Origin: a virus
Direction: 5' to 3' (one strand)
Length of the DNA: 28,115 nt
Virus record (IMG/VR): IMGVR_UViG_3300028383_000089
Coordinates: 1 to 28,115 of that record
Made by a program: the position numbers and the translations under genes. How positions within the stretch are numbered: the first letter of the stretch is position 1; every line of letters begins with the position of its first letter. Under the pieces are notes generated by a model that ran no database searches, was not told where the DNA came from, and was given only the letters and a program-made list of their open reading frames with translations. Positions 4,950 through 26,567 of this stretch are shown here, piece after piece.

Positions 4950-6266
4950 TTACCCAGTCCCCTTTTTGATGGTCTTGATAATATAACCAATCCCTGCCGT
5001 ATAGACGATCGCATACACGGCCATATACCCGATTAGGGAGGTGAGGGCCATCGGACCGGTCAGGGACGGTGTCAGGGCTTCTGAGTACTTCATATGCCCG
5101 TACACAAGCCATGGCGACCGACCAATCTCAGTGACAAACCACCCGGCAATCACAGCAACGAACGGGGCCGGGATCATCCATACTAGCAGATGATGAAAAG
5201 GATCCGGTGTGTTGAGTGTCCCGCGAACCCGCTTGATCAGGCCGACCAGACCGACAAGTACCATCAGCATCCCGATACCCACCATCACGCGGAAAGACCA
5301 GAACACAGGTGCGACCCACGGCCTTTCGGTGTCCGGGACATCGGTCACACCGGGGACAACACCGGAGGGGTCGTGCTTTAGGATAATCGACGCAAGATTC
5401 GGGATACCGATTTCAAGGTGATTGGTTTCCTCCTCCTGATCGGGCAGAGCAAATAACAGGAGTGGTACATTGCTAGATGTCACCCAGTTCCCCTCCATGG
5501 CAGCAACCTTGGTTGGCTGATACTCCAGTGTGTTCAGGCCATGGAGATCGCCCATATAAACCTGTGCCGGGGCAGCGAACAGGATAAGCCACAGGCACAT
5601 CGACAGGGCCTTACGGTGAGCAAGGGTATCGATCCCCCGGAGCATGAACCATGCCGATACACCCGCGACGACAAACGCACCGGTCAGGAACGACGCGATA
5701 CCCATATGAGCAAACCGGTATGGGAATGACGGATTGAAGATCGCCGCAAACCAGTCGGTTACATGGAACGCACCATTGATCAACTCAACACCCGCCGGTG
5801 TCTGCATCCACGAGTTAGCAGCCAGTATCCAGAACGATGAGATGAACGTCCCGACTGCGACCATACACGCGGCAAAAAGATGAACACCGGGAGGTACTCG
5901 GTCCCTCCCAAACAAAAGCACGCCAAGGAATGCGGCCTCAAGGAAGAATGCCGTGATGACCTCGTACGACAGAACCGGTCCAAGGAAGTTGGCAGTCGCC
6001 TGTGCAAAGTTAGACCAGTTGGTGCCAAATTGGAATGACATCACGATCCCGGACACGACACCCATGCCAAATGCAATGGCAAAGACCTTGGTCCAGAACG
6101 CCGAGAGTCGTGCGTACGCGTCATCTCCACTCTTGTAATAGAGGGCCTCTAGCAGTGCGATAAACGAAGCGATCCCGATCGAGAAGACCGGGAACACCGC
6201 ATGAAAAGACACGACAAATGCGAATTGTATTCGCGATAAGATCTGCGGATCAAGTATTTGTTCCAT
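4950..6266 (-). CDS. cydA: Cytochrome bd-type quinol oxidase subunit I
   Basis: 438 residues with the nine hydrophobic segments of CydA. Residues matching the E. coli functional sites are present: His22 (His19), Glu102 and Glu110 (Glu99 and Glu107), His187 (His186) and Met328 (Met393) for haem b558, Lys253 and Glu258 in the quinol loop (motif KVAAMEGNW), and Glu380 (Glu445) in GWFVTEIGRSPW. The loop between helices 6 and 7 is short, as in the cyanide-insensitive CioA group, and the total length fits that group. The enzyme oxidises quinol and reduces oxygen to water in the inner membrane, normally as a CydA-CydB dimer with a small extra subunit. No CydB, CydX or CydDC gene is in the window. 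It overlaps glyA by 17 bases and has AGAGG six bases before its ATG. The frame is intact. Confidence 0.95.
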   Translation of the reverse strand: MEQILDPQILSRIQFAFVVSFHAVFPVFSIGIASFIALLEALYYKSGDDAYARLSAFWTKVFAIAFGMGVVSGIVMSFQFGTNWSNFAQATANFLGPVLSYEVITAFFLEAAFLGVLLFGRDRVPPGVHLFAACMVAVGTFISSFWILAANSWMQTPAGVELINGAFHVTDWFAAIFNPSFPYRFAHMGIASFLTGAFVVAGVSAWFMLRGIDTLAHRKALSMCLWLILFAAPAQVYMGDLHGLNTLEYQPTKVAAMEGNWVTSSNVPLLLFALPDQEEETNHLEIGIPNLASIILKHDPSGVVPGVTDVPDTERPWVAPVFWSFRVMVGIGMLMVLVGLVGLIKRVRGTLNTPDPFHHLLVWMIPAPFVAVIAGWFVTEIGRSPWLVYGHMKYSEALTPSLTGPMALTSLIGYMAVYAIVYTAGIGYIIKTIKKGTG

Positions 6267-7410
6267 TGATTACCTCTGCTATATTTTGTGCGATTTCTCT
6301 GAATTTATCATCGGCCCTATTACCCAACCGTGTTGTTTCGGCTGCTGTTCCGATACGAATCCCCGAGGTTTCTGTGAATGGTCGTGGGTCATTAGGCACA
6401 CCGTTCTTGTTGACGGTAATCTCATTCTCCTCAAGCCAATCCGCGACATATTTTCCTGAGACGCCGTGCTCTCGAAGATCAACAAGAACGATATGAGAAT
6501 CAGTGCCCATCGTAACCGTTGGGACCCCCAACCTATGAAGTTCATAACTCAGTGCCTTTGCGTGACGAATCACGGCATCTGCATATTCCCCAAAACTTGG
6601 GGCGAGTGCTTCGGTATAACATTGGGCTTTGGCTGCGATAATATTCATGAGTGGGCCACCCTGAGTACCCGGAAAAACAGCAGAGTTAATCCGCTTGGTA
6701 TATGCAGGATCATTCCAGAGAATCATTCCTCCGCGTGGACCGCGAAGGGTTTTGTGTGTCGTCGAGGTGACTACATCGGCATAAGGTATTGGCGAGTCAT
6801 ACGACCCGCCAGCAATCAGCCCCGAGTAATGGGCCATGTCCACGAGCAGATATGCATCAACCTCATCGGCGATAGAACGAAACGCTGCCCAATCGACCTG
6901 TCGTGGGTACGCAGACGCACCGGCAACGATCATTTTAGGGCGGTGAGCGAGAGCAAGTTCTCGGACCTGATTGTGGTTAAGGTACCCGTCTTTATCGACA
7001 CTGTATGCGACTGAGTTGTACACCTTACCGGACATGTTGACCTTGGCACCGTGCGAAAGATGCCCACCCGACGCAAGGTCCATACCTAAAATTGTGTCAC
7101 CCGGTTTGAGGAATGCCTGATATACCGCCGTGTTTGCATTTGCACCCGAGTGAGGCTGGACATTCGCGTACCCACATTCGTACAGTTTACACACCTGAGC
7201 GATCGCATACTCCTCGATCTGGTCCATGAACTCACAGCCGTTGTAGTACCGGCGTCCGGGGTATCCTTCGGCATACTTGTTCGTAAATACCGAACCACAC
7301 AACCCCATAACAGCATCCGATGCAAAATTCTCGGATGCAATGAGTTCAAATGTATTTTTCTGTCGGTCCTGTTCTTGGTCCAGAATACTTGCAATTACTG
7401 AATCAATCAT
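6250..7410 (-). CDS. glyA: Serine hydroxymethyltransferase
   Basis: Converts serine and tetrahydrofolate to glycine and 5,10-methylene-tetrahydrofolate, the one-carbon donor for dTMP synthesis. The sequence has ELIASENF, NKYAEGYPGRRYY, NVQPHSGANAN, the PLP-contacting VDMAH (Asp191), the Schiff-base lysine in TTHKTLRGPRGG (Lys220) and the late motif TSGIRIGT. At 386 residues it is shorter than the usual 415 to 420: about ten residues are missing at the N-terminus and about 25 at the C-terminus, outside the active site, so it is probably active and compact. It sits between glutaredoxin and cydA in the nucleotide operon. No thymidylate synthase is in the window. Confidence 0.95.
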   Translation of the reverse strand: MIDSVIASILDQEQDRQKNTFELIASENFASDAVMGLCGSVFTNKYAEGYPGRRYYNGCEFMDQIEEYAIAQVCKLYECGYANVQPHSGANANTAVYQAFLKPGDTILGMDLASGGHLSHGAKVNMSGKVYNSVAYSVDKDGYLNHNQVRELALAHRPKMIVAGASAYPRQVDWAAFRSIADEVDAYLLVDMAHYSGLIAGGSYDSPIPYADVVTSTTHKTLRGPRGGMILWNDPAYTKRINSAVFPGTQGGPLMNIIAAKAQCYTEALAPSFGEYADAVIRHAKALSYELHRLGVPTVTMGTDSHIVLVDLREHGVSGKYVADWLEENEITVNKNGVPNDPRPFTETSGIRIGTAAETTRLGNRADDKFREIAQNIAEVINGTNT

Positions 7411-7422
7411 AATACCACACCA

Positions 7423-7695
7423 CTAAAAAATATCGTTCTCGGTGGGGGTGGCAAACATCTCAAGAAGATCTTCGTACCCCCCGACATGAATCATCTGCTT
7501 ATTGTCACGGGGATCCGGGTAGTAAAATATCTGTGGTACGGTCTTAGCGCCGAGTGAGCGAATGTACTCACCCGACGCCACATCCTCGTCAATATCGATG
7601 TACACGTACTCTTCACCACTGTTCAGATCCAGTGCATCGAGTGCCATGGCACAGTACGGGCAGTTTTCTTTTCCATAAACTTCAAACATTATCAT
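7423..7695 (-). CDS. Glutaredoxin
   Basis: 90 residues with the dithiol active site CPYC (Cys12, Cys15), the cis-proline motif TVPQIF and the glutathione-site GGYEDL. It is the likely electron donor that re-reduces the ribonucleotide reductase encoded just upstream, as NrdC does in T4. The ATG overlaps the nrdA stop (TGATG), with GAGG four bases upstream; a second ATG two codons later is also possible. The short length is typical of phage glutaredoxins. Confidence 0.92.
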   Translation of the reverse strand: MIMFEVYGKENCPYCAMALDALDLNSGEEYVYIDIDEDVASGEYIRSLGAKTVPQIFYYPDPRDNKQMIHVGGYEDLLEMFATPTENDIF

Positions 7696-9374
7696 CAAGC
7701 CTCACAAGATACACAGTTGTTCATCTGCTGGTACGTCTGCTGGGCTGCATTGACCGAATGCTGGTAGTACAGTGTACACACTTCCTTTTCCCATGCATGG
7801 ATCATCAACTGATTCAGTTCCTTGGGCGACATCTTCGAGTCGACCATCAGATTCAGTGACTGGGTCTGGTCAAGAAACTCCTGCCGGTCTGCGGCCTGAT
7901 CGATGATCACATACGGGTCAATCTCACGGAAGGTCTTGAACACGGCCTTCTCTTCATCAGACAAAGGCAGATGGGCAACAGACCCATCATTCTTGGAAAT
8001 CGACTCCCATACCTCTGTTGTGTTCAGACCCTTTTGGTCCAGAAGGTCTTCGAGGTACCGATTCCGAATCTCGACCTTCATCTTCGCCAGATTCTTGATA
8101 AAGTTGTTGGACATCCACGGCTCGATAGACTGGCTGACCTGCCCAAGAATCGTTGCCGATGAGGTAGTCGGTGCAATAGCCATGGTAGTGGTGTTGCGCC
8201 GACCGTATCCCTCCAGTACTTCCGGCTCGCCAAACATGTCGGCCAGCTTGACAGAGGCGGCGTACGAAGAGTCGGCAATGTCCTTGTGGATAACACGGTT
8301 CATCTCAAATGCCTTCTCGGACTCAAACGGAATCATGTTCCGCTGAAGGTACGAATGCCATCCCAGAACACCGAGGCCAAGCGCACGGTGACGACGCACA
8401 AAATCATATGCCCGCTTCAGGAAATAAAACCCCATCTCCCGTTCTTCGTCACCCGAGTCGCGCATCTTCTCCATCTTCTCGATGGCCTCACCGGCAACGG
8501 TATCAAGGAAAAATGTCATCACCTCAACAAGATCAGTGTCCTTCCACTCATCGTACTTCTCGACATTGACAGAGGAGAGGACACACACAAATGTTTCTTC
8601 ATTAGTTGTGGGCAATGAAATTTCACTACAGAGGTTACTAGACTGAATCTCCATACCCTTGTGCTTATACACCTCGGGCTTGTTCCGATTCATTGCATCC
8701 TTGAATGCGATGTACGGGACACCAATTTCTTTCCGACGCCGAAGCACCTTGGCCCAGATGCGACGCTTTTCCTTATCACCGTCGATCATCTCGCTCATCC
8801 AGTCATCCGGGATAACAACACCTGTTGTCATCGACTGAATAGGATGCCCCTCTGTCATAATATCAAGAAACTCGTCGATATCACCATGATCGATGTTCAG
8901 GTACGGTGCCATCCTACCCCGCCGGACACCACCCTGCGAGATTACGTCGGTGGCCTCCTGAAACAACTGCATGAAATGAACGGCACCACCCGTCTTGCCA
9001 TTACCAGAAATCTCAGAGCCGCGAGGGCGGATGTTCCCAAAGTAACCGGACGTACCACCGCCCATCTTACTGAGCATACCGGTCTCGGACTGAAAGTACA
9101 GGATAGACGGGACATTGTCGTCGCACGTCCCGTTAAAGCAACTGACAGGGAGGCCGCGCTCTTCGCGACCATAGTTTGACCACACGGGACTTGACAGACT
9201 GATCCACCCATTCCCCATGTACTCGTACATCTTGTCCCCAAAACCGGGGATGCCGAGTTTCTCCTCGGCGGCATCACAGATATCCCGGATTCTTTGAAGG
9301 GGTTCTTCTCCTTCCATGAGATACCCACTCTCAAGAAAGCGACGGGATGTGTCGTTTAGCCATTCAAAACTCAT
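7695..9374 (-). CDS. nrdA: Ribonucleotide reductase class I, large (alpha) subunit
   Basis: Catalytic subunit that reduces ribonucleotides to deoxyribonucleotides. Key residues are visible: Cys79 (LPVSCFNG) and Cys264 (VCVLSS) as the redox pair, Asn247-Cys249-Glu251 (NLCSEIS) of the active site, the Tyr536-Tyr537 radical relay (TLYYQHS) and the C-terminal CVSC pair that passes electrons from glutaredoxin. At 559 residues it is about 200 shorter than E. coli or T4 NrdA. The missing part includes the N-terminal ATP-cone, which is found on the beta subunit instead. The start has AAGGAG seven bases upstream. It follows nrdB by 21 bases. Confidence 0.95.
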   Translation of the reverse strand: MSFEWLNDTSRRFLESGYLMEGEEPLQRIRDICDAAEEKLGIPGFGDKMYEYMGNGWISLSSPVWSNYGREERGLPVSCFNGTCDDNVPSILYFQSETGMLSKMGGGTSGYFGNIRPRGSEISGNGKTGGAVHFMQLFQEATDVISQGGVRRGRMAPYLNIDHGDIDEFLDIMTEGHPIQSMTTGVVIPDDWMSEMIDGDKEKRRIWAKVLRRRKEIGVPYIAFKDAMNRNKPEVYKHKGMEIQSSNLCSEISLPTTNEETFVCVLSSVNVEKYDEWKDTDLVEVMTFFLDTVAGEAIEKMEKMRDSGDEEREMGFYFLKRAYDFVRRHRALGLGVLGWHSYLQRNMIPFESEKAFEMNRVIHKDIADSSYAASVKLADMFGEPEVLEGYGRRNTTTMAIAPTTSSATILGQVSQSIEPWMSNNFIKNLAKMKVEIRNRYLEDLLDQKGLNTTEVWESISKNDGSVAHLPLSDEEKAVFKTFREIDPYVIIDQAADRQEFLDQTQSLNLMVDSKMSPKELNQLMIHAWEKEVCTLYYQHSVNAAQQTYQQMNNCVSCEA

Positions 9375-9395: not shown

Positions 9396-10637
9396 TTAGA
9401 ACAGTTCGTCTTCGTCGAATGACGAATCAAATTTCGTGTAATTGATGCTTCGCTGGGCAAAGAAGTCGGTGTGTGAAGTGGCCATATTCTGAACATCAAA
9501 CCACTTGACACGGGTCAGCAGACCCTCATCGACGTCAAAGTAGCGGGGGAAACCCGCATCCTCAAGCCCCATATTGTATCGGTTCTTGATGTACTCGACA
9601 ACCTCGCCGCGGGTCAGGTACCCAAGATCACCGTCCTTGAAAATCCAGTCGATGATTGCCTTCTCGGCCTCGTACGACTCGTCGACCAGCTTGTACAGAT
9701 TCTCGGCCAGTTCGTCGGTGAACCAATCGGGGTTTTCCTCGCGCATGATGTTAACAAGCTCGGCCCCAAACTTGGCGTGCATCTGCTCCTCCAGTGAGGT
9801 AGCACCGACGACATTGCTCATTCCAGAGAGCCGCCCGGTTTCTTTGTTGATCTGTGAGATCACCAGAAACTGACTGAAAAGAGAGACGTTTTCGATAAAC
9901 AGGCTGAACAGGAGAACCGACTCCATAAAGTCTTTCTGAGAATCGGTCTTGGCATTGGCGATCGCCTTGTTGGCCACATTGACACGCTTTCTGATCGCCG
10001 GTATTTCCATCACGTCATCAAACTCGTTGTTCAGTCCAAGCAATTCGAGCAGCTTGGCATACGCTTTGGAGTGGCGGAGTTCCGATTCCCCAAAAGCCGT
10101 GCCCACCTCTTCAAACTCTGGCTTTGGGAGACGATCCCCGATACGCGACCAGAACTTCTTGACCGACACCTCGACCTGACTGATCGCAAGCATCGAGCGC
10201 CGCACGGCCTGCTGTTCATGGTACGGCATCTCGGCCATAAACTCCTGAATGTCACCCTGAAAGTTGAACTCCGTGACAATCCAGTATGACTGCTGCATCG
10301 CATCCACATACTTCTCGACCGACGGATACTCAAATGGCTTGTACGCAATGCGGGGGCGGAACACATTTGGCTTATTGTTATTTCGGTACGTGACATACTC
10401 ACGCGCCGTATCGAATGCCTTCGAGTCCATCAGGGCATTCTCTACCAGCTTGTGAATCTCATCGACGTTCACGCTATCTGACTGGATGTTGTTGGTCACA
10501 TACCGAACAACGTCGTCGTAGATCGAGGAAATCTCTTCAGTGGTTCTTGACATCGCCTTTTCGACGGCACTACGAATCTTATCGGCATCAAACCGAACAA
10601 CATCATTGTTTCTCTTGATGACACTTACTACTGACAT
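9396..10637 (-). CDS. nrdB: Ribonucleotide reductase class I, small (beta) subunit with N-terminal ATP-cone
   Basis: The C-terminal 320 residues are a ferritin-like radical subunit: Glu186, His189 and Tyr193 in ELRHSKAY correspond to Glu115, His118 and the radical Tyr122 of E. coli; Glu249 and Glu284/His287 (EEQMH) match the other metal ligands. The tail FDEDELF is the usual peptide that docks on NrdA. Residues 1 to about 90 form an extra ATP-cone (IKRNNDVVRFDADKI, then EIHKLVENALM and AREYVTYR), a regulatory domain normally on NrdA. Beta-located ATP-cones are known from a few bacterial class I enzymes, where dATP makes the beta subunits form inactive oligomers. First gene of the metabolic operon; AGGAG lies five bases before the ATG. 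Confidence 0.95.
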   Translation of the reverse strand: MSVVSVIKRNNDVVRFDADKIRSAVEKAMSRTTEEISSIYDDVVRYVTNNIQSDSVNVDEIHKLVENALMDSKAFDTAREYVTYRNNNKPNVFRPRIAYKPFEYPSVEKYVDAMQQSYWIVTEFNFQGDIQEFMAEMPYHEQQAVRRSMLAISQVEVSVKKFWSRIGDRLPKPEFEEVGTAFGESELRHSKAYAKLLELLGLNNEFDDVMEIPAIRKRVNVANKAIANAKTDSQKDFMESVLLFSLFIENVSLFSQFLVISQINKETGRLSGMSNVVGATSLEEQMHAKFGAELVNIMREENPDWFTDELAENLYKLVDESYEAEKAIIDWIFKDGDLGYLTRGEVVEYIKNRYNMGLEDAGFPRYFDVDEGLLTRVKWFDVQNMATSHTDFFAQRSINYTKFDSSFDEDELF

Positions 10638-11154: not shown

Positions 11155-11578
11155 TGTTCTCTTCCTCTGTTCTCTGTGCTCCGGACGCCAGTTCGATGCA
11201 CCGGATCGCTTCGCTAGACCCATTGTTGATTGCGTTTTCGACCAGTCCGGGTTTCTGTGCCGCCAGTCGAGCAAAGTCCCGGTCTTCCCCACTCGATGAT
11301 GTATCAAACCGCGATCTCAGGTCATTGATCTCCCGAGACTGACGGTTATCTATATCCCGCAACTCCTCGCTCAATTCCCGGATCTGGCTCTGTTCCTCTC
11401 GCATCCGGTCGATAACGTCCTGTTGCTCCTGAACCGCACTACTCAGGTCTTTGGTGTTCTGTACCGACTGTTCAAGATCGGCCCGAAGCCCAGAGACATA
11501 GTAGAAAAAAGCAATCCCCGAGATCAGTGCCCCAGAGACAGCAACAACTTTGACGATTGAACCGATAGACGATATCAT
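11081..11578 (-). CDS. Inner-membrane spanin (Rz-like, i-spanin)
   Basis: 165 residues: one N-terminal membrane segment (residues 8-28, VVAVSGALISGIAFFYYVSG), then a coiled coil rich in Glu, Gln and Arg to about residue 95, then FARLAAQKPGLVENAINNG, a motif common in phage i-spanin-like proteins. The topology (N-in, long periplasmic coil) and the overlapping lipoprotein gene define the pair. The ATG overlaps the stop of the 62-residue gene before it. No endolysin or obvious canonical holin is beside it. Confidence 0.75.
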   Translation of the reverse strand: MISSIGSIVKVVAVSGALISGIAFFYYVSGLRADLEQSVQNTKDLSSAVQEQQDVIDRMREEQSQIRELSEELRDIDNRQSREINDLRSRFDTSSSGEDRDFARLAAQKPGLVENAINNGSSEAIRCIELASGAQRTEEENNATKPSEVNSLCPSLANPKYTPDG

Positions 11579-11763
11579 TTTTTGTACTGTGTGCCAAGTG
11601 CCCGCTTGTACATCTTTTCGACATCAAAGCGGGATCTCCGGTCCACTTTCCGGATCACGGACTTGCCAGTCGGAGCCATATCAACCCCACCGCCCGCAAC
11701 CGCATTGGTCGGGGCTTCTTCTTCGATCTCTTCGAGATACTCTTTGAATGACTTGAGACGCAT
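11575..11763 (-). CDS. Small protein with capsid-targeting-like N-terminus
   Basis: 62 residues beginning MRLKSFKEYLEE, then an acidic stretch, a Gly-rich linker (VAGGGVDMAPTG) and a basic C-terminus (KSVIRKVDRRSRFDVEKMYKR). The first twelve residues resemble the T4 internal-protein targeting peptide (MKTYQEFIAE), which the gp21 protease cuts after (L/I)xE. Cleavage here after LEE would leave a small, largely basic protein, as expected for a DNA-associated head protein. Function is inferred from this similarity and from the late-operon position. Confidence 0.6.
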   Translation of the reverse strand: MRLKSFKEYLEEIEEEAPTNAVAGGGVDMAPTGKSVIRKVDRRSRFDVEKMYKRALGTQYKK

Positions 11764-11774
11764 ACGGTGTACAC

Positions 11775-12386
11775 CTACCTTTGAATATCGTGTTCGGACA
11801 CATACACGGGCTGGCGCGTCATTGTATGAGTGACCTCATAGATCCGGACACCGAACATCTGACCGCACGGGCGCGTGCCTTCATCGACCCGGACCTTACT
11901 GCCCTCTGTGGCCATGTACTCCCCAGTCGAGGGGATCGGCGTGTCGACCTTGAGGGTGTACACACCGGGAGAGAGTGAGTGACCGTCAGACGGATGGACG
12001 AACCACTCGGCACCCTCCGAGAGAATCGGGTTGACCAGATCTTCCTCGACATCGATATCCATCTGGTCGAGTACCCATGCGATCTGTTCCTCAGACATCC
12101 CGGCCTCTTCGCGAAGGAGGAAAAGCGCGGCAGCATACGATGCAATCCGCTTGCGCCCAAGGGGCAGTTTTTCGAGAAGACGCTTGATGTTAAACACCAG
12201 ACGATGAAACAGTGTGTATGCCTTCCGCTCATCCGGAGTGCGTAGCTGGTTCGACTTTTTGAGGACGTTTCCTTCGTCGTCAATGATGCCAAGGTCGTAC
12301 GCATCCATTTCTTCCCACGGTGTCGTGAGAATCTTGAGGAATCGGTACGTATAGTACGTATCGGCAGCTTTGGAAATAATGCTCAT
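11775..12386 (-). CDS. Conserved T4-like phage protein (YYTYRFLKILTTPW type)
   Basis: 203 residues. The start ADTYYTYRFLKILTTPWEEMDAYDLGIID and the following FHRLVFNIKRLLEKLP and SYAAALFLLREEAGMSE match a protein conserved in cyanophages and other marine T4-like phages, located among late genes; its function is not established. The N-terminal 130 residues are helical; residues from 140 on form a separate, beta-rich part (SPGVYTLKVDTPI) with a Cys (RPCGQMFG). It sits in the late operon four bases after the neighbouring conserved gene. Probably virion- or assembly-related. Confidence 0.7.
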   Translation of the reverse strand: MSIISKAADTYYTYRFLKILTTPWEEMDAYDLGIIDDEGNVLKKSNQLRTPDERKAYTLFHRLVFNIKRLLEKLPLGRKRIASYAAALFLLREEAGMSEEQIAWVLDQMDIDVEEDLVNPILSEGAEWFVHPSDGHSLSPGVYTLKVDTPIPSTGEYMATEGSKVRVDEGTRPCGQMFGVRIYEVTHTMTRQPVYVSEHDIQR

Positions 12387-12390
12387 CGGG

Positions 12391-12762
12391 TTACAGGTTC
12401 CTTAGCACATCAACGACATACGGATCAAGAGGGATCTCGACGTACGCCTGTTCTGGCAGATAATTCAGGTACACGAGGAACGTCTTGACAACAGGAAGAT
12501 ACTCCTCCTCCATACGGAAAAACATCATCCTGTTTGCCGGTTCAACACCAAACACATTGTACAGTACGACCAGATGGTTGAGGATCAACCGCTCCTGTAG
12601 ATCGTCATTCTGGGTGTACCGCCGGAACAATCGTTTCAGGTACTTGAACCGCTGCACATCATTGTAAAATTCCTCGACACTCAGGCATTGCGGATTATCG
12701 TAATGTCGAGATGCAAACAGGATAAAGTTGTCGTCATTCAGTTCGTCAAATAGCCCAGTCAT
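12391..12762 (-). CDS. Conserved T4-like phage protein (DUF7207-like)
   Basis: 123 residues with the pattern ILFASRHYDNPQCLSVEEF, FKYLKRLFRRY, ERLILNHLVVLYNVFG and VVKTFLVYLNYLP, which I recognise as a small all-helical protein conserved in T4-like phages and, I believe, called DUF7207. Its role is unknown. A CTAAATA late-promoter core and a 5' stem-loop lie directly upstream, so it probably starts its own late transcript together with the next genes. Confidence 0.7.
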   Translation of the reverse strand: MTGLFDELNDDNFILFASRHYDNPQCLSVEEFYNDVQRFKYLKRLFRRYTQNDDLQERLILNHLVVLYNVFGVEPANRMMFFRMEEEYLPVVKTFLVYLNYLPEQAYVEIPLDPYVVDVLRNL

Positions 12763-12778
12763 GATCCTCTCGATACGC

Positions 12779-12805
12779 TCGGTGAATTGTATTGTCTTTC
12801 ACCGA
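12779..12805 (-). other. Stem-loop at the 5' end of a late transcript
   Basis: Perfect 8-bp inverted repeat TCGGTGAA / TTCACCGA with an 11-base loop. It begins immediately downstream of the CTAAATA core, so transcripts starting there would carry it at or near their 5' end, about 17 bases before the start codon. It could protect the RNA or influence initiation of translation. Confidence 0.5.
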
Positions 12806-12812
12806 TATTTAG
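12806..12812 (-). promoter_or_regulatory. Putative late promoter core CTAAATA
   Basis: Minus-strand CTAAATA 44 bases before the ATG of the DUF7207-like gene, overlapping the stop codon (TAA) of the previous gene. Same heptamer and similar distance as the copies at 2722 and 19696. Confidence 0.45.
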
Positions 12813-13204
12813 CGCCCCGAAAGCATTCTCCGAACAGACTCAAACGACGGGGATACCTCTGGCTTCGGTGCATTGGTCGGTGCCTCGGGGGCCTGTGCCT
12901 GACTTACAGTCTGAGTAACGTCATACCCATCCTTGCCCGGACGATCAAACGTCTCGGTGTCATGGCGGTCGGCCCAGTGCTTCTCGGCCTCGGCACGCGG
13001 CTCAAGTTTCTCCTGATCCTCTTCGCGGGGCTTGCGCTGTGCCCGACCCGAGTACCGGTAATCAGATGACCCGGTCGCCTCGTAGTACTCCTTGACAAAA
13101 CTTTTGAACTCGCGCTCACTCATGTTATCGATCAGGTCAGAAACCTCTGACTTTGACGCTTCCATGATCGCGTCCCAGTTCCAGTATGTGTTGCTGCTGC
13201 TCAT
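12809..13204 (-). CDS. Hypothetical protein with disordered C-terminal half
   Basis: 131 residues. The first 60 are helical (AIMEASKSEVSDLIDNMSER, then FVKEYYEATG). The rest is rich in charged residues, Pro, Gln and Ala (QAQAPEAPTNAPKPEVSP) and is probably disordered. The ATG overlaps the stop of the EF-hand-like membrane protein gene (ATGA). No family recognised. A late-operon position suggests a structural or assembly role. Confidence 0.6.
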   Translation of the reverse strand: MSSSNTYWNWDAIMEASKSEVSDLIDNMSEREFKSFVKEYYEATGSSDYRYSGRAQRKPREEDQEKLEPRAEAEKHWADRHDTETFDRPGKDGYDVTQTVSQAQAPEAPTNAPKPEVSPSFESVRRMLSGR

Positions 13205-13512
13205 GCTAATCGTCCTCTTGGTTTGTTACTCGTCGGTTTTCTTGATCGGTTGACAATGGCCTCTGATCCCATATACGCGGACACGACGCCCGCCTGTGCC
13301 AGATAAAACAGATCGGCGATCCCCCTGAATGCGTCAATCCGCTCAGGTGGAATGATCGGGAGGAAAATCAGTCCCGTAAACAGGAGCATCGACCCGAGTG
13401 CAATCCACGCCATCTTACGTTGATTGTCCTGCCGTCGATCAATCCGCTCCTGTTCGATAAACTCGACTTCCTGCTCAGACAGTTCACCGTCACTGTTCAT
13501 ATCATATTCCAT
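13201..13512 (-). CDS. Small membrane protein with an EF-hand-like loop
   Basis: 103 residues if started at MEYDMNSDG. Residues 4-15 (DMNSDGELSEQE) fit the EF-hand calcium loop exactly: acidic or Asn at 1, 3 and 5, Gly at 6, Leu at 8, Glu at 12. A charged helix (FIEQERIDRRQDNQRKM) and a hydrophobic segment (AWIALGSMLLFTGLIFLPII) follow, then a second weaker one. Similar small proteins (an acidic DxDGxL start, then a charged helix and a membrane span) occur in other T4-like phages. An in-frame ATG four codons later would remove the first loop residue. It may be a holin-like or regulatory membrane protein; unproven. Confidence 0.6.
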   Translation of the reverse strand: MEYDMNSDGELSEQEVEFIEQERIDRRQDNQRKMAWIALGSMLLFTGLIFLPIIPPERIDAFRGIADLFYLAQAGVVSAYMGSEAIVNRSRKPTSNKPRGRLA

Positions 13513-13891
13513 AGTTCGAGATGACAATCGCCACAACTACAGTGGTAACTGCCGATACGGCTGTCCAGAAAATCATCCCCAGATTCTTGAGAGACGACTT
13601 GGTTTTTTCGTTGTCGATCTCAAGCTGATGAATTCGCTGAATGTTGTTGGACAGTGCCTCTTTGATTTCGCGGGTGTCTTCGATCAAGACGGTGATCTTC
13701 TCCTCGGCCCTAGCAATCGAAACAACAGCATCGGTCAGTTGGTTCAACTTCTTCTCGATACGATCCATCCGTTCGGCATAATGCTCGTCGAACTTGCGAT
13801 GCAGATCGTCAAGATCGCGCTGACTGGCCGTCATATCTGATCTGGAATTGTTACTGTTATTGTTATTGTGGTCGCTGTTGTAATCAGCCAT
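13502..13891 (-). CDS. Coiled-coil protein with C-terminal membrane anchor (XhlA-like topology)
   Basis: 129 residues from MADYNSDHNNNN. An Asn-rich head is followed by about 75 residues of coiled coil (DDLHRKFDEHY, then RIEKKLNQLTDAV and IQRIHQLEIDN) and one C-terminal membrane segment (IFWTAVSAVTTVVVAIVIS). This coil-then-anchor topology is shared with XhlA-type proteins of phage lysis regions, but no family motif proves it. It overlaps the next membrane protein gene by 11 bases. The pair could be lysis accessories along with the spanins 2 kb downstream. Confidence 0.55.
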   Translation of the reverse strand: MADYNSDHNNNNSNNSRSDMTASQRDLDDLHRKFDEHYAERMDRIEKKLNQLTDAVVSIARAEEKITVLIEDTREIKEALSNNIQRIHQLEIDNEKTKSSLKNLGMIFWTAVSAVTTVVVAIVISNYGI

Positions 13892-13916
13892 TCCGATCCT
13901 TTTCCTTTTGCTGTAC

Positions 13917-14369
13917 CTAGACCTTGACTGTCGGACTTGTGGATTTGAAGTTTTTCTTCCGCATGATTGTCTTGGCAATCACATCAAACTCATCATTCCG
14001 CTCATCATACTCAATCGCAAAAGGGATATTCAGGTTGTTTTTTACGTCCTTGAGGACAATTTCCATGTCCGGCCAGCGCGAGAAGATTTTGCGTCCCTGC
14101 TTTCGACTCATGTAGATGCGGTTAAACAGGGCCTTCAGTTCTTCGGCGCTGATGCTCGGCTTGTTTCTTGGATGGGATGCCCGATCCGAGAAGTGGCGAG
14201 TAAACCGAAAGTCGATGTCAAACGGATCAAACCGCTTGGAGAACTCGCGTTCCAGTTCCTTCACATCGTCGAACGTGATCCCACGATCCGATGCGGCTGA
14301 TCCTTCTGGTCCCCTACTCGGACGGTATACTCGCCTCCGCTCTTCGAGGTACTCCTTGAACGTGATCAC
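13917..14369 (-). CDS. Phage protein with capsid-targeting-like N-terminus and conserved DUF domain
   Basis: 150 residues from a GTG start that overlaps the previous stop (GTGA). It begins MITFKEYLEE, like the T4 internal-protein targeting peptide. Residues 55 to 145 (RFTRHFSDRASHPRNKPSI, SAEELKALFNRIY, VLKDVKNNLNIPFAIEYD, VIAKTIMRKKNFK) match a domain that I recall from several marine T4-like phages, with the typical RHFxDR opening and a closing AKTIMRKxNFK. Its function is unknown. Basic overall, located among late genes, so a packaged head protein is a reasonable guess. Confidence 0.65.
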   Translation of the reverse strand: MITFKEYLEERRRVYRPSRGPEGSAASDRGITFDDVKELEREFSKRFDPFDIDFRFTRHFSDRASHPRNKPSISAEELKALFNRIYMSRKQGRKIFSRWPDMEIVLKDVKNNLNIPFAIEYDERNDEFDVIAKTIMRKKNFKSTSPTVKV

Positions 14370-14785
14370 TTTTCACTGTTCCTTTCCTGCCAGTCATAGG
14401 ACATATCATCTTCTTCGATGGGACCGCCCTTGGCCCATGTCCGGCAGGTCCGGGCCGAATGACACTTAAAGTGGTGCATCCAACAGTACCCGAGAACACC
14501 GTCGTCGTCAGAAGTCTCACCCGGCATACACTCCATCATCCTTGGCGAGATATCGAATGCAACACAGTTGCCACACACCGATGATTTTGCCGCCTCAAGG
14601 CTCGTATCCCAATGCTCTGCGATGTCTTCCCAGAAGTCACCGGGCTGATCAACATTAAGGGGGCCGTACTGGATATGCTCGGCCTGAATTGCCGAATCAC
14701 GGTTTTCGGTGTTGACCTCCAGATCCTGTGTCGGGACCGGGCAAACCATATCCTGTTCTTTCAGATACCGGGCAAAACTCTTCAT
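14366..14785 (-). CDS. Cys-rich, probably metal-binding phage protein with capsid-targeting-like N-terminus
   Basis: 139 residues starting MKSFARYLKE. The C-terminal half has six Cys and two His in an ordered pattern: CGNC (71, 74), Cys86, CWMHHFKC (101, 108) and Cys114, followed by RTWAKGGPI. Related phage proteins have the same CGNCxAF ... GYCxMHxFKC ... RTCxxW layout, reminiscent of high-potential iron-sulfur proteins; a zinc site is equally possible. A metal cluster in a protein tagged for the capsid would be unusual. It overlaps the next gene by GTGA. Confidence 0.6.
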   Translation of the reverse strand: MKSFARYLKEQDMVCPVPTQDLEVNTENRDSAIQAEHIQYGPLNVDQPGDFWEDIAEHWDTSLEAAKSSVCGNCVAFDISPRMMECMPGETSDDDGVLGYCWMHHFKCHSARTCRTWAKGGPIEEDDMSYDWQERNSEK

Positions 14786-14790
14786 TCTGA

Positions 14791-16173
14791 TTAGTCGTCC
14801 TTCTGCTGTGGTGTCTTGTACCCAGCCTCACGGCGAGCATCATAGTATGCAGCAATGGCCATGTCCTTGCGCTCTTCGGCGGACTTGCCTTTGAACTGTT
14901 CGGCATCCGAGTCCTTGAAGTCTTTGATCCAATCCGAGATATCGTCGGTGGCCGACAGCTTCTCGGAGATCTGCTTGGACTCGAACATACGCATCTGATA
15001 ACCAAAACCAGACTCGATTTTCTTTCGAGCCTTTTCAGCTTCTTTCTTATCTTTTACTGTAAAGATAGTTTTGAATTGACGACCACGACTGCTGCCTTTG
15101 GGACGAATCTGAATAGCAAAGCCGTCAGATGCCTTTAATCCCTTGGTATCAAGTTCTTCCTCACCGCCACGGTCTTTTAGATCAATAACACGCACTTCTT
15201 GAGGCTTTTTCTTCATATCAAGTCGTTTGATATCTTTTGACGGATTATCCATCATGTCTTTGAACATTTGATATAAATCACCAGTTTGTTCATACATGCC
15301 CATATCCATCATGTCCTCATCGTCGTCCATGTCCATATCCATATCGGCATCTGTATCCATGTCCATGTCCATGTCCATGTCATAATCATAATCGTCCATC
15401 CCCATGGTTTCGGGGCCACACATCTCGCGCTTCCGACGCTTGCCTTCCATGTACGAGTGAATGCCTTCCATATCGCCTTCGACCTTGGCGATCTTGTTCT
15501 GGTACCACTCAGGCATCTCGGTACCAGCCTTGAGGCACTCGATCACTTCCTCGGCAGCATACTGGATAAAATGAAGCTGAGTCATCGCCATCTCGACAGC
15601 ACCGGTCGGGCCATAGTCCGGGTAGTCGTACGCTTCACCAAGAAGCTTAGACACCTCTTCCTTCATGTAATTCTTGGCCTCTTCCATCGGCACACACTTC
15701 GGGACTTCCTTCCCGTTCTTCATCTTGGTGCCGACCTGAACGTACCCATCCCAGCAAGGATCATCCTCGTCCTTCTCCAATTCATCCATCATCAGATTCA
15801 TAATTTCAACGTCTTTGACATCATAAAGGTTAGTCCCCTCTTTCGTGCGGACTTTAACTAGGTTTCTGCCTTCCATGCCATAGAACATACCCATTTTGCC
15901 GTTTACCATGACATCATCGCCCAAATCAAGCTTCTTGAGTTCTTTGGCAGTGGCCTCTGAAACGCGCTTTTTACTACATGAGCCTTCGTCCATCGCCTTG
16001 TCGATTTTCTTCCTCCGCTTATGGAGATACTCATCCGACGAATCCACATCACCGTCGTTGTCGATGTCCTTGTCTTTCCGGTTCTTGAACTTCTTATCCA
16101 GCGCCTTGTCTTTGACCGGATCAAGTTCCTTTTTCTCATTGAGTCTGTTATAAAAGCTAAAAAAGTCTGCCAT
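14791..16173 (-). CDS. Large acidic prohead/virion-associated protein, mosaic of phage structural motifs
   Basis: 460 residues. In order: a start with FYNRLNE (possible targeting and cleavage site); an EF-hand-like loop at 36-47 (DIDNDGDVDSSD) followed by EYLHKRRKKIDK, common in T4-like prohead proteins; a CWDGYVQVGTK...VPKCVP motif (140-162) seen in many marine phage structural proteins; a helical domain with PEWYQNKIAKVEGDM (221-235); a Met-Asp low-complexity tract (257-293); a basic region (RVIDLKDRG, IQIRPKGSSRGRQF) and a C-terminal SDWIKDFKDSDAEQFKGKS motif, also typical of phage head proteins. Each module is known from other phages, but the whole is of unknown function; scaffold, core or internal protein are all possible. 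Confidence 0.65.
   Translation of the reverse strand: MADFFSFYNRLNEKKELDPVKDKALDKKFKNRKDKDIDNDGDVDSSDEYLHKRRKKIDKAMDEGSCSKKRVSEATAKELKKLDLGDDVMVNGKMGMFYGMEGRNLVKVRTKEGTNLYDVKDVEIMNLMMDELEKDEDDPCWDGYVQVGTKMKNGKEVPKCVPMEEAKNYMKEEVSKLLGEAYDYPDYGPTGAVEMAMTQLHFIQYAAEEVIECLKAGTEMPEWYQNKIAKVEGDMEGIHSYMEGKRRKREMCGPETMGMDDYDYDMDMDMDMDTDADMDMDMDDDEDMMDMGMYEQTGDLYQMFKDMMDNPSKDIKRLDMKKKPQEVRVIDLKDRGGEEELDTKGLKASDGFAIQIRPKGSSRGRQFKTIFTVKDKKEAEKARKKIESGFGYQMRMFESKQISEKLSATDDISDWIKDFKDSDAEQFKGKSAEERKDMAIAAYYDARREAGYKTPQQKDD
15295..15405 (-). repeat. Low-complexity Met-Asp tract inside the structural gene
   Basis: About 37 codons of alternating Met/Tyr and Asp (DYDYDMDMDMDMDTD and following), built from the tandem hexamer GACATG. 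It lies between two structured parts of the protein and probably forms a flexible, strongly acidic linker. The repeat is prone to length change by slippage. Confidence 0.8.
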
Positions 16174-16212
16174 GGTTACGTACCTATTACTGTTAGTGTT
16201 CCTCTGTTGGTA

Positions 16213-17568
16213 TTACCGTTTGATACTTGATCGAAAATTCTTGAATGATTCGGTCCTGCGACGACGGCTTGGAAGATCTTCTTCGTCGTCCTCGTCTTCT
16301 TCGCGACGGCGTTCCTGCTCATCCTCGATTTCGTCTCGCCGCCGAGCATCCTCCAGCTTGTCCTGATACTCGCGTTCCAGATCCATCTCGGCCTGACGCT
16401 TTTCGCGCTCGACCCGATCAACCTCAGATTCTTCCTCGGCAATGATCAGGGTCTCGACCTGTTCGGCGATCGATGTGTCTGTATTTAGGAGTGTGAACTC
16501 GTCGATCAGATCCTTACGTGTCGCCATGGACTTCGGGAGAATACCCTTGTTGATCATGTCATGGAGAGTTTTCTCTAAATTCCGAAAGTCGAGATCCGTG
16601 ATTCGCGCAGTCTTGACCAGATCCTGCCGTGTCCCACTTCTCCCGTGCCTCTGGATATAGTACTTGATTCCCTTCCGATACTTTTTCTTGTGAACTAACC
16701 GGTCAAGGAAACGATCGAGTTTTGGGTCCAAAACAGATAACTCCGATTCGTCGATTTTCTCTACGGACTCAAGCCACTTACGCATCTTTCGACCATCGGC
16801 AGTCTCGACAAGCACGTAGTTGGACCCCAGCATTACTACCCGGCCAACCTCATCGGACTCCTTGATAACCACGTCGTCGCCTTCCTCAAACAGAGTTCCG
16901 GCGACATACTCCTCCCTCCGTTCAGAAACCGGAGAGAGTTGGATGTGTGAGCGAAAGTCATGGGTCTCGGCCAGACCCACGCCCTGACGAACATCATTGA
17001 ACAGATTTTTGGACTCCGAGAAATCGGAGGGGATATTCTTGAGGAACGAGCGATAATCATTATGACTCGCGGCCTCGATCAGCCTCTCGGGCGTCGGGGC
17101 AGCAGACCCCGATGAAATAACATTCACTCCCTCGCGGAAGTGATAGAATCCATGACGACCGGGGACACCGTTCTTGCGATCGACCATGACCTCGGTCTCG
17201 ATACGATGATCTTCGGGGACAACGAGATTGATCTGATTGTACCCCTCGTCGTACGCGATCGTAAGGAAGTCATGGACACTGTTTGCAGACTCATCAAGGA
17301 CAAGTGATCGCGCATACCGGGGAAACATCTTGCGCGTGTACTTGACACTTGCGCGACGGTCAAGCGGCGAACTCGCCTCATCGATCGTCGGGTAGATTCG
17401 ATACACGCCCCGCTTGCCTGCCACCTTGGCCGTCGCCTCGAACAGACGCTCATGTGCCGATGAAGGGACATGAACCCGTGGGGCGATACAAATCGTAATC
17501 TCTTTTTTCGATTCGTTTAGATACTCACTAAACGACTTGATCTTTGGCTTTTTTACTTGGTATTCCAT
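16213..17568 (-). CDS. Late phage protein with degenerate nucleotidyltransferase-like domain and charged tail
   Basis: 451 residues. After a start containing KSFSEYLNE (targeting-like) comes a domain of about 190 residues with the outline of phage HxGH-type nucleotidyltransferases: ITICIAPRVHVPSSAHERL, YRIYPT, SPLDRRASVKYTRKMFPRY and NLVVPEDHR. The catalytic TTGH-like motif has become SSAH and the late SGxxxR motif is also altered, so catalysis is doubtful. Next is a small KOW-like module (EGDDVVIKESDEVGRVVML), then KKYRKGIKYYIQRHG and a long C-terminal Arg/Glu-rich helix. First gene after the tandem late promoters, with AAGGCGG before its ATG. Confidence 0.65.
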   Translation of the reverse strand: MEYQVKKPKIKSFSEYLNESKKEITICIAPRVHVPSSAHERLFEATAKVAGKRGVYRIYPTIDEASSPLDRRASVKYTRKMFPRYARSLVLDESANSVHDFLTIAYDEGYNQINLVVPEDHRIETEVMVDRKNGVPGRHGFYHFREGVNVISSGSAAPTPERLIEAASHNDYRSFLKNIPSDFSESKNLFNDVRQGVGLAETHDFRSHIQLSPVSERREEYVAGTLFEEGDDVVIKESDEVGRVVMLGSNYVLVETADGRKMRKWLESVEKIDESELSVLDPKLDRFLDRLVHKKKYRKGIKYYIQRHGRSGTRQDLVKTARITDLDFRNLEKTLHDMINKGILPKSMATRKDLIDEFTLLNTDTSIAEQVETLIIAEEESEVDRVEREKRQAEMDLEREYQDKLEDARRRDEIEDEQERRREEDEDDEEDLPSRRRRTESFKNFRSSIKR

Positions 17569-24483: not shown

Positions 24484-24859
24484 TCTTGTACTCCCCTGTC
24501 TGGAATGAGCGTAGGATGATGTAATGTAGAACCCGACCGATAAACTCATCAAACTGATCGGTCAGTTCAACGTCATCAGTATCATCATCGGTCCGTACGA
24601 TCTCATAATCAAAGTTCATGGTTGCCTCGTCGGACCCCTCGTCGGCGGGTGGAGCGAGAGATACTCGACCATACCGAATAACAATACCAGAGTACGGTTC
24701 GCGCTTCAACCGAATCTTGACGGTCGTGTCCATCGTAGAGTCGACGGCATCTGGATCATCGGCCCCTTCGACATCACGGTCAAGGTACTGAAAATCGGAA
24801 TCGGAGATTCCAATCTCCCTGATAATCTCATCAAACTCACCATCGTTACCTACTGTCAT
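24431..24859 (-). CDS. Hypothetical acidic protein between uvsX and the helicase
   Basis: 142 residues, strongly acidic, with a central beta-rich part (VKIRLKREPYSGIVIRYGRVSL, MNFDYEIVR) and a helical end (FDEFIGRVLHYIILRSFQ). Comparable unknown proteins sit between uvsX and gene 41 in other marine T4-like phages. It overlaps UvsX by ATGA and the helicase gene by 53 bases, so the three are made in concert. A role as a recombination or helicase-loading partner is conceivable from position only. Confidence 0.65.
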   Translation of the reverse strand: MTVGNDGEFDEIIREIGISDSDFQYLDRDVEGADDPDAVDSTMDTTVKIRLKREPYSGIVIRYGRVSLAPPADEGSDEATMNFDYEIVRTDDDTDDVELTDQFDEFIGRVLHYIILRSFQTGEYKIGRTTDSDRDSEESPQE

Positions 24860-25935
24860 TCCTCAGCGCCTCCTTCATTTTCGGCCCTCAGTTCTTCGGG
24901 AAGATCTTCTGGATCGATCATCGATCGGTACCCGACCATATAGTGGTTCTGGACAAACTCATTGAAGTTGGGGTCCGAGAGAATAGGCTTCCAAAACTCC
25001 TTGTTCAAGGTGTCCTTGGCCCGTACCTTCGGGTAAATCTCTTCTCCTGTCTCGGTATCGACGCGGCAGTACCATCCCTGTGACGGCTTGGTCACATGGC
25101 CAGACAGGAGAGCAATATCCAGCAGACCCGAGAATCGCTCGATACCCCCGTCCCATGAGACAGACACCGGGACCTTGGACTTCTCCTTCACGAACCGAGA
25201 CTTCTCGACATTGATAATAAAGTGGTAGCCCTTGACCTCGGCACCGTCCTTGTCTTGCTGACGACCAATAATCCATACGTTGTCTGCCGAGTACATGATT
25301 CCTGTACCACCAGAGACCACGGCCTTTGAGTACATCTCCATGGTATTGTACGTATGGTTCACCGCCAAGAGTGGGATGTTCTTCATCGTCAGGTGTGGAG
25401 TCACCATCCGAAACAACCCTTTGAGGGCTTTGGCCCGTGACATATCGGCAACCGACTTTTCGTTCATCGCATCCTCGACCTCTTTCTTCGAGGCAAGGTT
25501 ACCGACCGAATCAATCACCACGACGACATGGTCATCTCGCTCGATATTGTCTAGCTGGTTCATCATATCGAACTTGAGTTGCTCTACGTCCGTGATCGGA
25601 GTGTGGAGGACGCGATTCGGGTCAATACCAAACGATTCAAAGTACCCCTGCGGGGAGCCAAACTCCGAATCATAGAACAGGAGGACGGCATCGTCGTACT
25701 TATTCAGGTATGCAGAAGCCATTAGCAGGGCAAACGAAGTCTTGAAGTGTTTTGACGGTCCAGCCAAAACGGTAAGACCTGACGAAATGCCACCATCGAT
25801 ACGTCCTGACAGGGCAACATTCACCATCGGAACGTCGGTCGGGATCTGATCATTCTGTGAAAAGAACTGCGAGTCTGCGAGCGTTGCAGTCTCGGACACC
25901 CGCGAATTCTTCTTTAGTTTATCCATTACACCCAT
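24856..25935 (-). CDS. uvsX: RecA-like recombinase UvsX
   Basis: 359 residues from the ATG reading MGVMDKLKK, which has AAGGAG ten bases upstream; a TTG two codons earlier is less likely. Walker A GPSKHFKTS (59-67) and the Walker B-like VVVVIDSVGNL are clear, with VNHTY and the SGGTGIMYSAD region near the DNA-binding loop 2 position, all as in T4 UvsX. The protein forms filaments on single-stranded DNA and drives strand exchange for recombination-dependent replication and repair. The C-terminus ends in an acidic tail (AENEGGAEE). Confidence 0.93.
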   Translation of the reverse strand: MGVMDKLKKNSRVSETATLADSQFFSQNDQIPTDVPMVNVALSGRIDGGISSGLTVLAGPSKHFKTSFALLMASAYLNKYDDAVLLFYDSEFGSPQGYFESFGIDPNRVLHTPITDVEQLKFDMMNQLDNIERDDHVVVVIDSVGNLASKKEVEDAMNEKSVADMSRAKALKGLFRMVTPHLTMKNIPLLAVNHTYNTMEMYSKAVVSGGTGIMYSADNVWIIGRQQDKDGAEVKGYHFIINVEKSRFVKEKSKVPVSVSWDGGIERFSGLLDIALLSGHVTKPSQGWYCRVDTETGEEIYPKVRAKDTLNKEFWKPILSDPNFNEFVQNHYMVGYRSMIDPEDLPEELRAENEGGAEE

Positions 25936-25937
25936 AT

Positions 25938-26567
25938 TCAATCTTCTCCTTCGGTCGTCAGTACGGGTTCAATCAATCCGAATTCTTCCATCTCCGTGAG
26001 TTTGACCCTCACTGCTTCGTTGATAAAATCGTTGATCTTCATGTCCTTGTAATGTGCTGCAAGGGCAATAGCTGCCAGTTCATCGTTACTCATATCGAGT
26101 GTGATTGACTCACCTTCTTCGTCGTCGTCATCGCCATCATCGTCCCCCCCTTTGTACCGGACACTATGGGCGTTACCCGCGTCTCGGAATATCCCTTCGA
26201 GTTCTGCCCACACCTCATCGATATCAACGGCATTCGAGAACTGAGTACCAGTATCTGGGTCGGCGACATTAGGCTCGACCTGACGCTCAAAGCACTCGGA
26301 ATAGTATGCCGAAAAATACTCGGGATTGATCCACCGAGTATACTCTTTACACCATTCGTCGTGTACCGACGCTTCGTATATTTCACCGGTTACGGGGTTG
26401 AACACCACATCAAACGCGACATCCTTGGTTTTCTCGGGTGTGACGGTCAGGCAGTATGCGTTGGGGTAGCAGTTCCACATGTACTTAGAGTAGTAGTCTA
26501 CCTCGGTCTTTACACCTTCCCAATCCAGCTTGCGAAGGATTCCATACATCGTTGCGATATTTTCCAT
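25938..26567 (-). CDS. Phage protein with acidic linker and ribbon-helix-helix-like C-terminus
   Basis: 209 residues. The first 135 form a Tyr/Trp/Cys-rich domain (YYSKYMWNCYPNAYCLTV, VVFNPVTGEIYEASVHDEW) that I do not recognise. A very acidic linker follows at 141-153 (nearly all Asp, Glu and Gly). The C-terminal 45 residues (MSNDELAAIALAAHYKDMKI, then NDFINEAVRVKL) have the spacing of a ribbon-helix-helix DNA-binding or dimerisation unit; similar tails occur in other phage proteins. Its stop lies three bases before the UvsX start. Confidence 0.6.
   Translation of the reverse strand: MENIATMYGILRKLDWEGVKTEVDYYSKYMWNCYPNAYCLTVTPEKTKDVAFDVVFNPVTGEIYEASVHDEWCKEYTRWINPEYFSAYYSECFERQVEPNVADPDTGTQFSNAVDIDEVWAELEGIFRDAGNAHSVRYKGGDDDGDDDDEEGESITLDMSNDELAAIALAAHYKDMKINDFINEAVRVKLTEMEEFGLIEPVLTTEGED

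Follow-up and report, generated by a model that had tools for sequence, protein, structure and literature searches.

Four proteins encoded in a 28,115-base virus fragment from IMG/VR (record IMGVR_UViG_3300028383_000089; the whole stretch is called the window below) carry near their N-termini a short peptide, the tag, that resembles the capsid-targeting sequence of bacteriophage T4. We consider it very probable that the tag is indeed a capsid-targeting sequence of the T4 type, which would make the four proteins head cargo cut by a gp21-type protease and probably ejected with the DNA.

The tag and its register

The motif [FYW]xx[FYW][LIVM]xE was sought in residues 2-26 of the 44 window proteins. 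Exactly four contain it, the products of the genes starting at 11763, 14369, 14785 and 17568, which lie on the minus strand, as do all genes under study. Shuffled N-terminal 25-mers yield on average 0.17 motif proteins (P 5e-5), and random internal 25-mers, taken as a control, yield 0.58 (P 5e-4). The tags are MRLKSFKEYLEE in the 62-residue product of gene 11763 (residues 1-12, positions 11728-11763), (M)ITFKEYLEE in gene 14369, which has a GTG start (residues 1-10, 14340-14369), MKSFARYLKE in gene 14785 (residues 1-10, 14756-14785), and KSFSEYLNE in gene 17568 (residues 11-19, 17512-17538). No alternative start was found just upstream of the latter. All tags share YLxE and lie within the first 10-19 residues, and the bodies behind them are mutually unrelated. 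The sequence-only reading had claimed a tag for these four genes, which the statistics bear out, and a looser one for gene 16173. The latter was dropped from the tagged set: its segment MADFFSFYNRLNE departs from the motif, and the relatives in C48C1 and S-SM1 are untagged at this place.

Genetic analysis of the T4 sequence MKTYQEFIAE assigned targeting to residues 4 and 7 and processing to residues 8 and 10 (PMC9026906). MITFKEYLEE and MKSFARYLKE agree with T4 at all four positions (F4, Y7, L8, E10). In the 62-residue protein the aromatic residues are at 6 and 9, followed by L10 and E12, that is, the T4 register shifted by two, and in the 17568 protein the shift is nine. As a positive control, the same scan of a 45-kb part of T4 found in the first 20 residues only IPII and IPIII, both at residue 4. 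The capsid-targeting interpretation, already proposed in the sequence-only reading, is thus supported, since the register in the window equals that of T4 at the residues shown to matter by genetics. It gains further support from tagged homologues of the 17568 protein in the virions of S-SM1, S-CREM2 and S-SCSM1.

Related phages and their virions

In related contigs (approximately 3000 open reading frames, ORFs), the motif shows a 7- to 22-fold enrichment at N-termini, although these factors are inflated because contigs of shared ancestry are not independent samples. The expected counts were derived from internal positions, and the first 20 residues were considered. The motif peaks at residue 4; a second form, MKLLLENWRKYL.E, has its peak at residue 8. 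The loci of the 14785 protein (80 from IMG/VR), together with three loci of the 17568 protein, contain 131 motif ORFs versus 5.9 expected; 77 of these have the residue-8 form, often on several consecutive genes. Near the loci of the 62-residue and 14369 proteins there are 34 versus 5.1 and 67 versus 4.5, respectively, both with the peak at residue 4. Grouped by body, the 159 tagged proteins form 63 unrelated clusters; a few of these are expected by chance. One tagged body is an ADP-ribosyltransferase (ART-PolyVal, above the Pfam cut-off), and Nudix hydrolases (NUDIX) are frequent. The syntenic block of C48C1 contains the tags MLSFKQFVSE, IKNFSQYLLE, MITFKKYLEE and MKKFKQYIDE, and MQGFKTFLSE and NFSKYITE occur beside the syntenic block of Melnitz. 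In the IMG/VR loci L059, L064, L067 and L049, up to eight nearby unrelated genes open with MKLLLENWRKYL.E or MKKLLTEWRKFL.E, one of them encoding an ADP-ribosyltransferase.

Published proteomics of cyanophages provides virion data for several tagged relatives. The cytidylyltransferase T4-GC190 was detected in S-SM1 virions by Sullivan et al. 2010 (PMC3037559); it is SSM1_190, with the N-terminus MKKFSAFLNE. The same enzyme was found in virions of S-SCSM1 and S-SZBM1 (PMC9602691, PMC9146016). In S-SCSM1 it is S-SCSM1_91, which begins with MKSFLQFLKE and belongs to a block where genes 89-93, 95 and 97 are labelled as virion proteins. In S-CREM2, mass spectrometry of virions detected 52 of about 219 proteins (PMC10665884, Table 3). 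Of seven S-CREM2 ORFs with the motif among residues 1-25, five were detected (P 0.009), as were all four ORFs with the exact register (P 0.003); both P values are approximate because the motif was widened by one residue class, F at the aliphatic position, during the test. The detected tagged proteins are SAM hydrolase gp6, Cas9-like nuclease gp12, APH-like kinase gp14, gp136, and cytidylyltransferase gp154. Indeed, apart from two endolysins, every non-structural enzyme in the S-CREM2 virion list bears the motif.

Several observations, besides the shared ancestry of the contigs, speak against capsid targeting. The two other motif-bearing ORFs of S-CREM2 were not detected in virions. S-SCSM1_30, with the N-terminus MKTFKQFMSE, is labelled as a hypothetical rather than a virion protein, and the cytidylyltransferases of S-CAM9 and S-8S55 are untagged. 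All virion data come from relatives and not from this phage, and the published virion studies of these relatives report no mature N-termini after LxE and no other evidence of cleavage. Finally, the 28-kb fragment contains no gp21, gp22 or gp23. The sequence-only reading had called for a search for a gp21-type protease; it is thus missing from the window. Of the 13 related records that exceed 110 kb, however, 12 encode a protease of this family, and the genome annotations of C48C1, Melnitz, S-SM1, S-CREM2 and S-SCSM1 list one too.

One possibility is that the tag is a docking helix for the tail, the neck or the shell surface, so that its bearers would belong to the virion without being gp21-processed cargo of the head interior. 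Proteomics gives association with the virion and not location within the head, and S-CREM2 gp136 and S-SCSM1_30 sit among neck, tail and terminase genes. Against it stands the exact T4 register, processing residues included; the tagged ADP-ribosyltransferase and NUDIX bodies resemble injected cargo, and a site of the type cut by the protease in the major capsid protein (MCP) is also present on the 62-residue protein. We regard this explanation as unlikely.

Less probable still is that the tagged proteins are abundant contaminants from late infection, their N-terminus having some other role, for instance that of a regulatory or translation-linked leader. The authors of the S-CREM2 and S-SCSM1 studies did raise contamination of CsCl preparations by such enzymes (PMC10665884, PMC9602691). 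Contamination, however, does not predict that all non-lysis enzymes of the S-CREM2 virions (SAM hydrolase, kinase, Cas9-like nuclease, cytidylyltransferase) bear the motif. Moreover, the cytidylyltransferase recurs in virions from several laboratories, and the register of the peptide pattern is fixed across relatives. It is hardly credible that the shared N-terminus is a functionless by-product of gene duplication or of 5'-end recombination in a hot spot: arrays of consecutive genes do share MKLLLENWRKYL.E, but the tag is kept on unrelated bodies in distantly related phages, its sequence varies while the aromatic, aliphatic and Glu positions remain constant, and it is missing from homologues in small phages unlike T4.

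The tagged proteins and their neighbours

The 62-residue protein (11575-11763), delineated by the tag scan, a position-specific scoring matrix (PSSM) and synteny, consists of the tag, a copy of the MCP maturation site, and a basic tail. The site-like segment IEEE/APTNAVAGGGVDMAP (11671-11727) may be a second cleavage site, as suggested by the PSSM and by comparison with the maturation sites of related MCPs: FLTE/TGPTNSVAGGQV in C48C1, FLSE/AAPTNSTGSAV in Melnitz and FMSE/AAPTNSTGSGV in an IMG/VR phage. Slashes mark the expected, not measured, cut after Glu; MCPs in short loci were located by a PF07068 search. With a PSSM built from seven MCP maturation sites alone, the 62-residue protein scores highest in the window (17.2 bits versus 7.25 for the next protein), a score equalled by one of 300 shuffled proteomes. 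IMG/VR contains 54 related loci; tblastn against phage isolates gave only two matches, both at chance level. The gene follows an untagged syntenic marker, the DUF7207/PHROG 407 gene (12391-12762; PF23837, E 2e-44; 46% identity to S-SCSM1_96), and this position matches those of S-SCSM1_97 and S-CREM2 gp160, both virion proteins. The latter copy the N-terminal arm of the MCP of their own kind, GATGFTGAAAPEGPVAGYDPLMG compared with GADGFTGAAAPGGPNAGFDPVMIG in the S-CREM2 MCP.

The stretch E(E/D)xAPxNSVAGGGVDM(N/A)P is portable: different proteins have it at their start, in the middle or at the end (loci L150-L203), and in one case it stands behind the Cys-rich domain described below (L190, 7548-8321); its conservation partly reflects selection, because the search was seeded with the stretch itself. 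A small virion-labelled protein of S-SCSM1, S-SCSM1_93 (L321, 31627-31836), has a tag-like C-terminus, KKRTFKEFLEYIE.

The product of gene 14785 (14366-14785, 139 residues) is a Cys-rich protein, as had been noticed from the sequence together with a putative metal-binding role; homologue searches found C15, C71, C74, C86, C101, C108 and C114 to be invariant in 33 homologues. At least 599 stretches in IMG/VR encode it; identity is 67-80% in the 80 best matches. The family looks phage-only, because matches in GTDB genomes are confined to five loci, all on contigs of metagenome-assembled genomes. Relatives in small phages unlike T4 are untagged. The depositors' label "high potential iron-sulfur protein" (HiPIP, PF01355) was not confirmed by Pfam, PDB sequences or hhalign: the window protein has no Pfam match at all at E up to 10, one distant relative gives E 0.06, below the cut-off, and the hhalign comparison yields a probability of 0.4%. 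The AlphaFold 2 (AF2) model of the Cys-rich protein is unusably poor (predicted local distance difference test, pLDDT, 54). In the unrelated phage DSL-LC01 the Cys-rich domain follows another domain in a fusion protein (L310, 5656-6390), whose gene immediately precedes three genes with the annotations capsid maturation protease and MCP.

The product of gene 14369 (13917-14369, 150 residues) has homologues at 40-50% identity, with the strongly conserved segments FTRHF..R....RN and KTIMRKKNFK. Approximately two thirds of the 42 members of this domain family either have their own tag or are fused behind a tagged cytidylyltransferase, a pattern suggesting that a common destination is what the tag marks. 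No Pfam family was found for this domain, with sub-threshold matches only, RegB among them. The AF2 model is of moderate quality (pLDDT 72). Its best named Foldseek match is a predicted phage site-specific RNA endonuclease of the RegB type (E 5e-7, TM 0.50), followed by weak matches to HigB2 (probability 0.77, E 0.04) and RelE. The body of this protein is a putative RegB/RelE-like RNase.

The product of gene 17568 (16213-17568, 451 residues) is similar to cytidylyltransferases and NMNAT (PHROG 395, E 7e-26; 29% identity to S-SM1 T4-GC190, E 8e-28). It may be no longer catalytic, because the nucleotidyltransferase signature GRFNPPTxGH, retained in related copies, is degenerate (APRVHVPSSAH). 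In several cytidylyltransferases the tag is followed by a module of about 45 residues, LxLxxxGxGxWxDxxGxxxxxTxxGKL, which on visual inspection is present also in the Cas9-like protein and the APH-like kinase of S-CREM2. Proteins with this module are encoded in loci L321 (28820-30049), L093 (48256-49419), L089 (4831-6117), and L322 (7704-10313 and 10579-12846).

The untagged 460-residue acidic protein encoded between the 14785 and 17568 genes (14791-16173) contains an EF-hand-like segment, DIDNDGDVDSSDEYL. It is a partial homologue of the virion-labelled S-SCSM1_92 (45% identity over 49 residues, E 6e-5).

The minus strand of the window also encodes T4-type replication proteins, namely UvsX/RecA (24856-25941) and, as read from translations alone, a DnaB-type helicase, a primase and an NrdA-like pair. 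Two adjacent ORFs (7695-9374 and 9396-10637, minus strand) both look in translation like parts of the large subunit of ribonucleotide reductase, which would fit a split gene. Genes for cytochrome bd oxidase subunit I (4950-6266; PF01654, E 4e-160) and serine hydroxymethyltransferase (6250-7410; PF00464, E 1e-142) overlap by 17 bases on the minus strand. No CydB was noticed near the former.

Possible delivery mechanism and comparison with known systems

If the tag is a capsid-targeting sequence, it would act during head assembly as an N-terminal helix, with aromatic residues three apart followed by L-x-E, that binds the prohead scaffold core and draws the protein into the head. A gp21-type protease would then cut after (L/I)xE and leave the body inside. 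The bodies would probably exit with the DNA and act at the start of infection. The candidate cargo consists of the perhaps non-catalytic cytidylyltransferase/NMNAT-like protein, the putative RegB/RelE-like RNase and the phage-only Cys-rich protein. As for the 62-residue protein, its second site copies both the MCP cut site and the mature N-terminal arm, and after cutting the protein would probably dock on the shell in the manner of the MCP arm.

It also seems reasonably probable that modular delivery is used by a large part of the T4-like phages of aquatic habitats. A tag of 10-14 residues, with an aromatic residue at position 4 or 8 and sometimes accompanied by an MCP-site module, would be attached to dozens of unrelated effectors, often encoded in arrays, so that virions would carry exchangeable sets of pre-made proteins predictable by the tag from sequence alone. 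These effectors would include ADP-ribosyltransferases, Nudix hydrolases, RegB-like RNases, kinases, SAM hydrolases, Cas9-like nucleases and the Cys-rich phage-only protein. The tag would explain the presence of a kinase, a SAM hydrolase, a Cas9-like nuclease and NMNAT-like enzymes in cyanophage virions, for which the authors could not exclude contamination, and would provide a rule for predicting, from sequence, which effectors thousands of uncultured phages inject. It further brings in two new elements, a conserved family of probably head-directed Cys-rich phage proteins and a small protein with a copy of the MCP maturation site. In the literature searched (subscription papers were outside its coverage), the terms "capsid targeting" and "cyanophage" occur together in a single review on T4.

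Among known systems, the internal head proteins of phiKZ and SPN3US, compared here by description, are similar in that propeptides of several head cargo proteins are cut after x-x-E by a gp21 relative; in contrast to the window, the review (PMC9026906) mentions no short tag like that of T4 in these proteins. The cytidylyltransferase/NMNAT-like virion proteins of cyanophages (S-SM1 T4-GC190, S-CREM2 gp154, S-SCSM1_91) have a body homologous to that of the 17568 protein (25-29% identity) and the same type of tag, and in S-SM1 and S-SCSM1 also the same genome neighbourhood. The window protein differs by the absence of the GRFNPPTxGH signature and of the module of about 45 residues that follows the tag in S-SM1, S-SCSM1 and others. 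S-SCSM1_97 and S-CREM2 gp160 resemble the 62-residue protein in their place after the DUF7207 gene and in a stretch close to the mature N-terminus of the MCP, whereas the window protein adds the tag and a possibly cleavable Glu-rich stretch, and copies another MCP subgroup.

The closest parallel is the gp21-processed tag of IPI, IPII, IPIII and Alt of T4. In the window its letters are F-x-x-Y-L-x-E, and in two genes it begins at residues 6 and 13; relatives have a second widespread form, MKLLLENWRKYL.E, and cleavage is known for T4 and predicted here. The bodies are unrelated to the T4 internal proteins. On the other hand, the N-terminal place is the same, two of the four window genes have aromatic residues at 4 and 7, an aliphatic residue at 8 and Glu at 10, and relatives of the window contain tagged ADP-ribosyltransferases similarly to Alt. 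As in T4, one type of tag is carried by several unrelated bodies.

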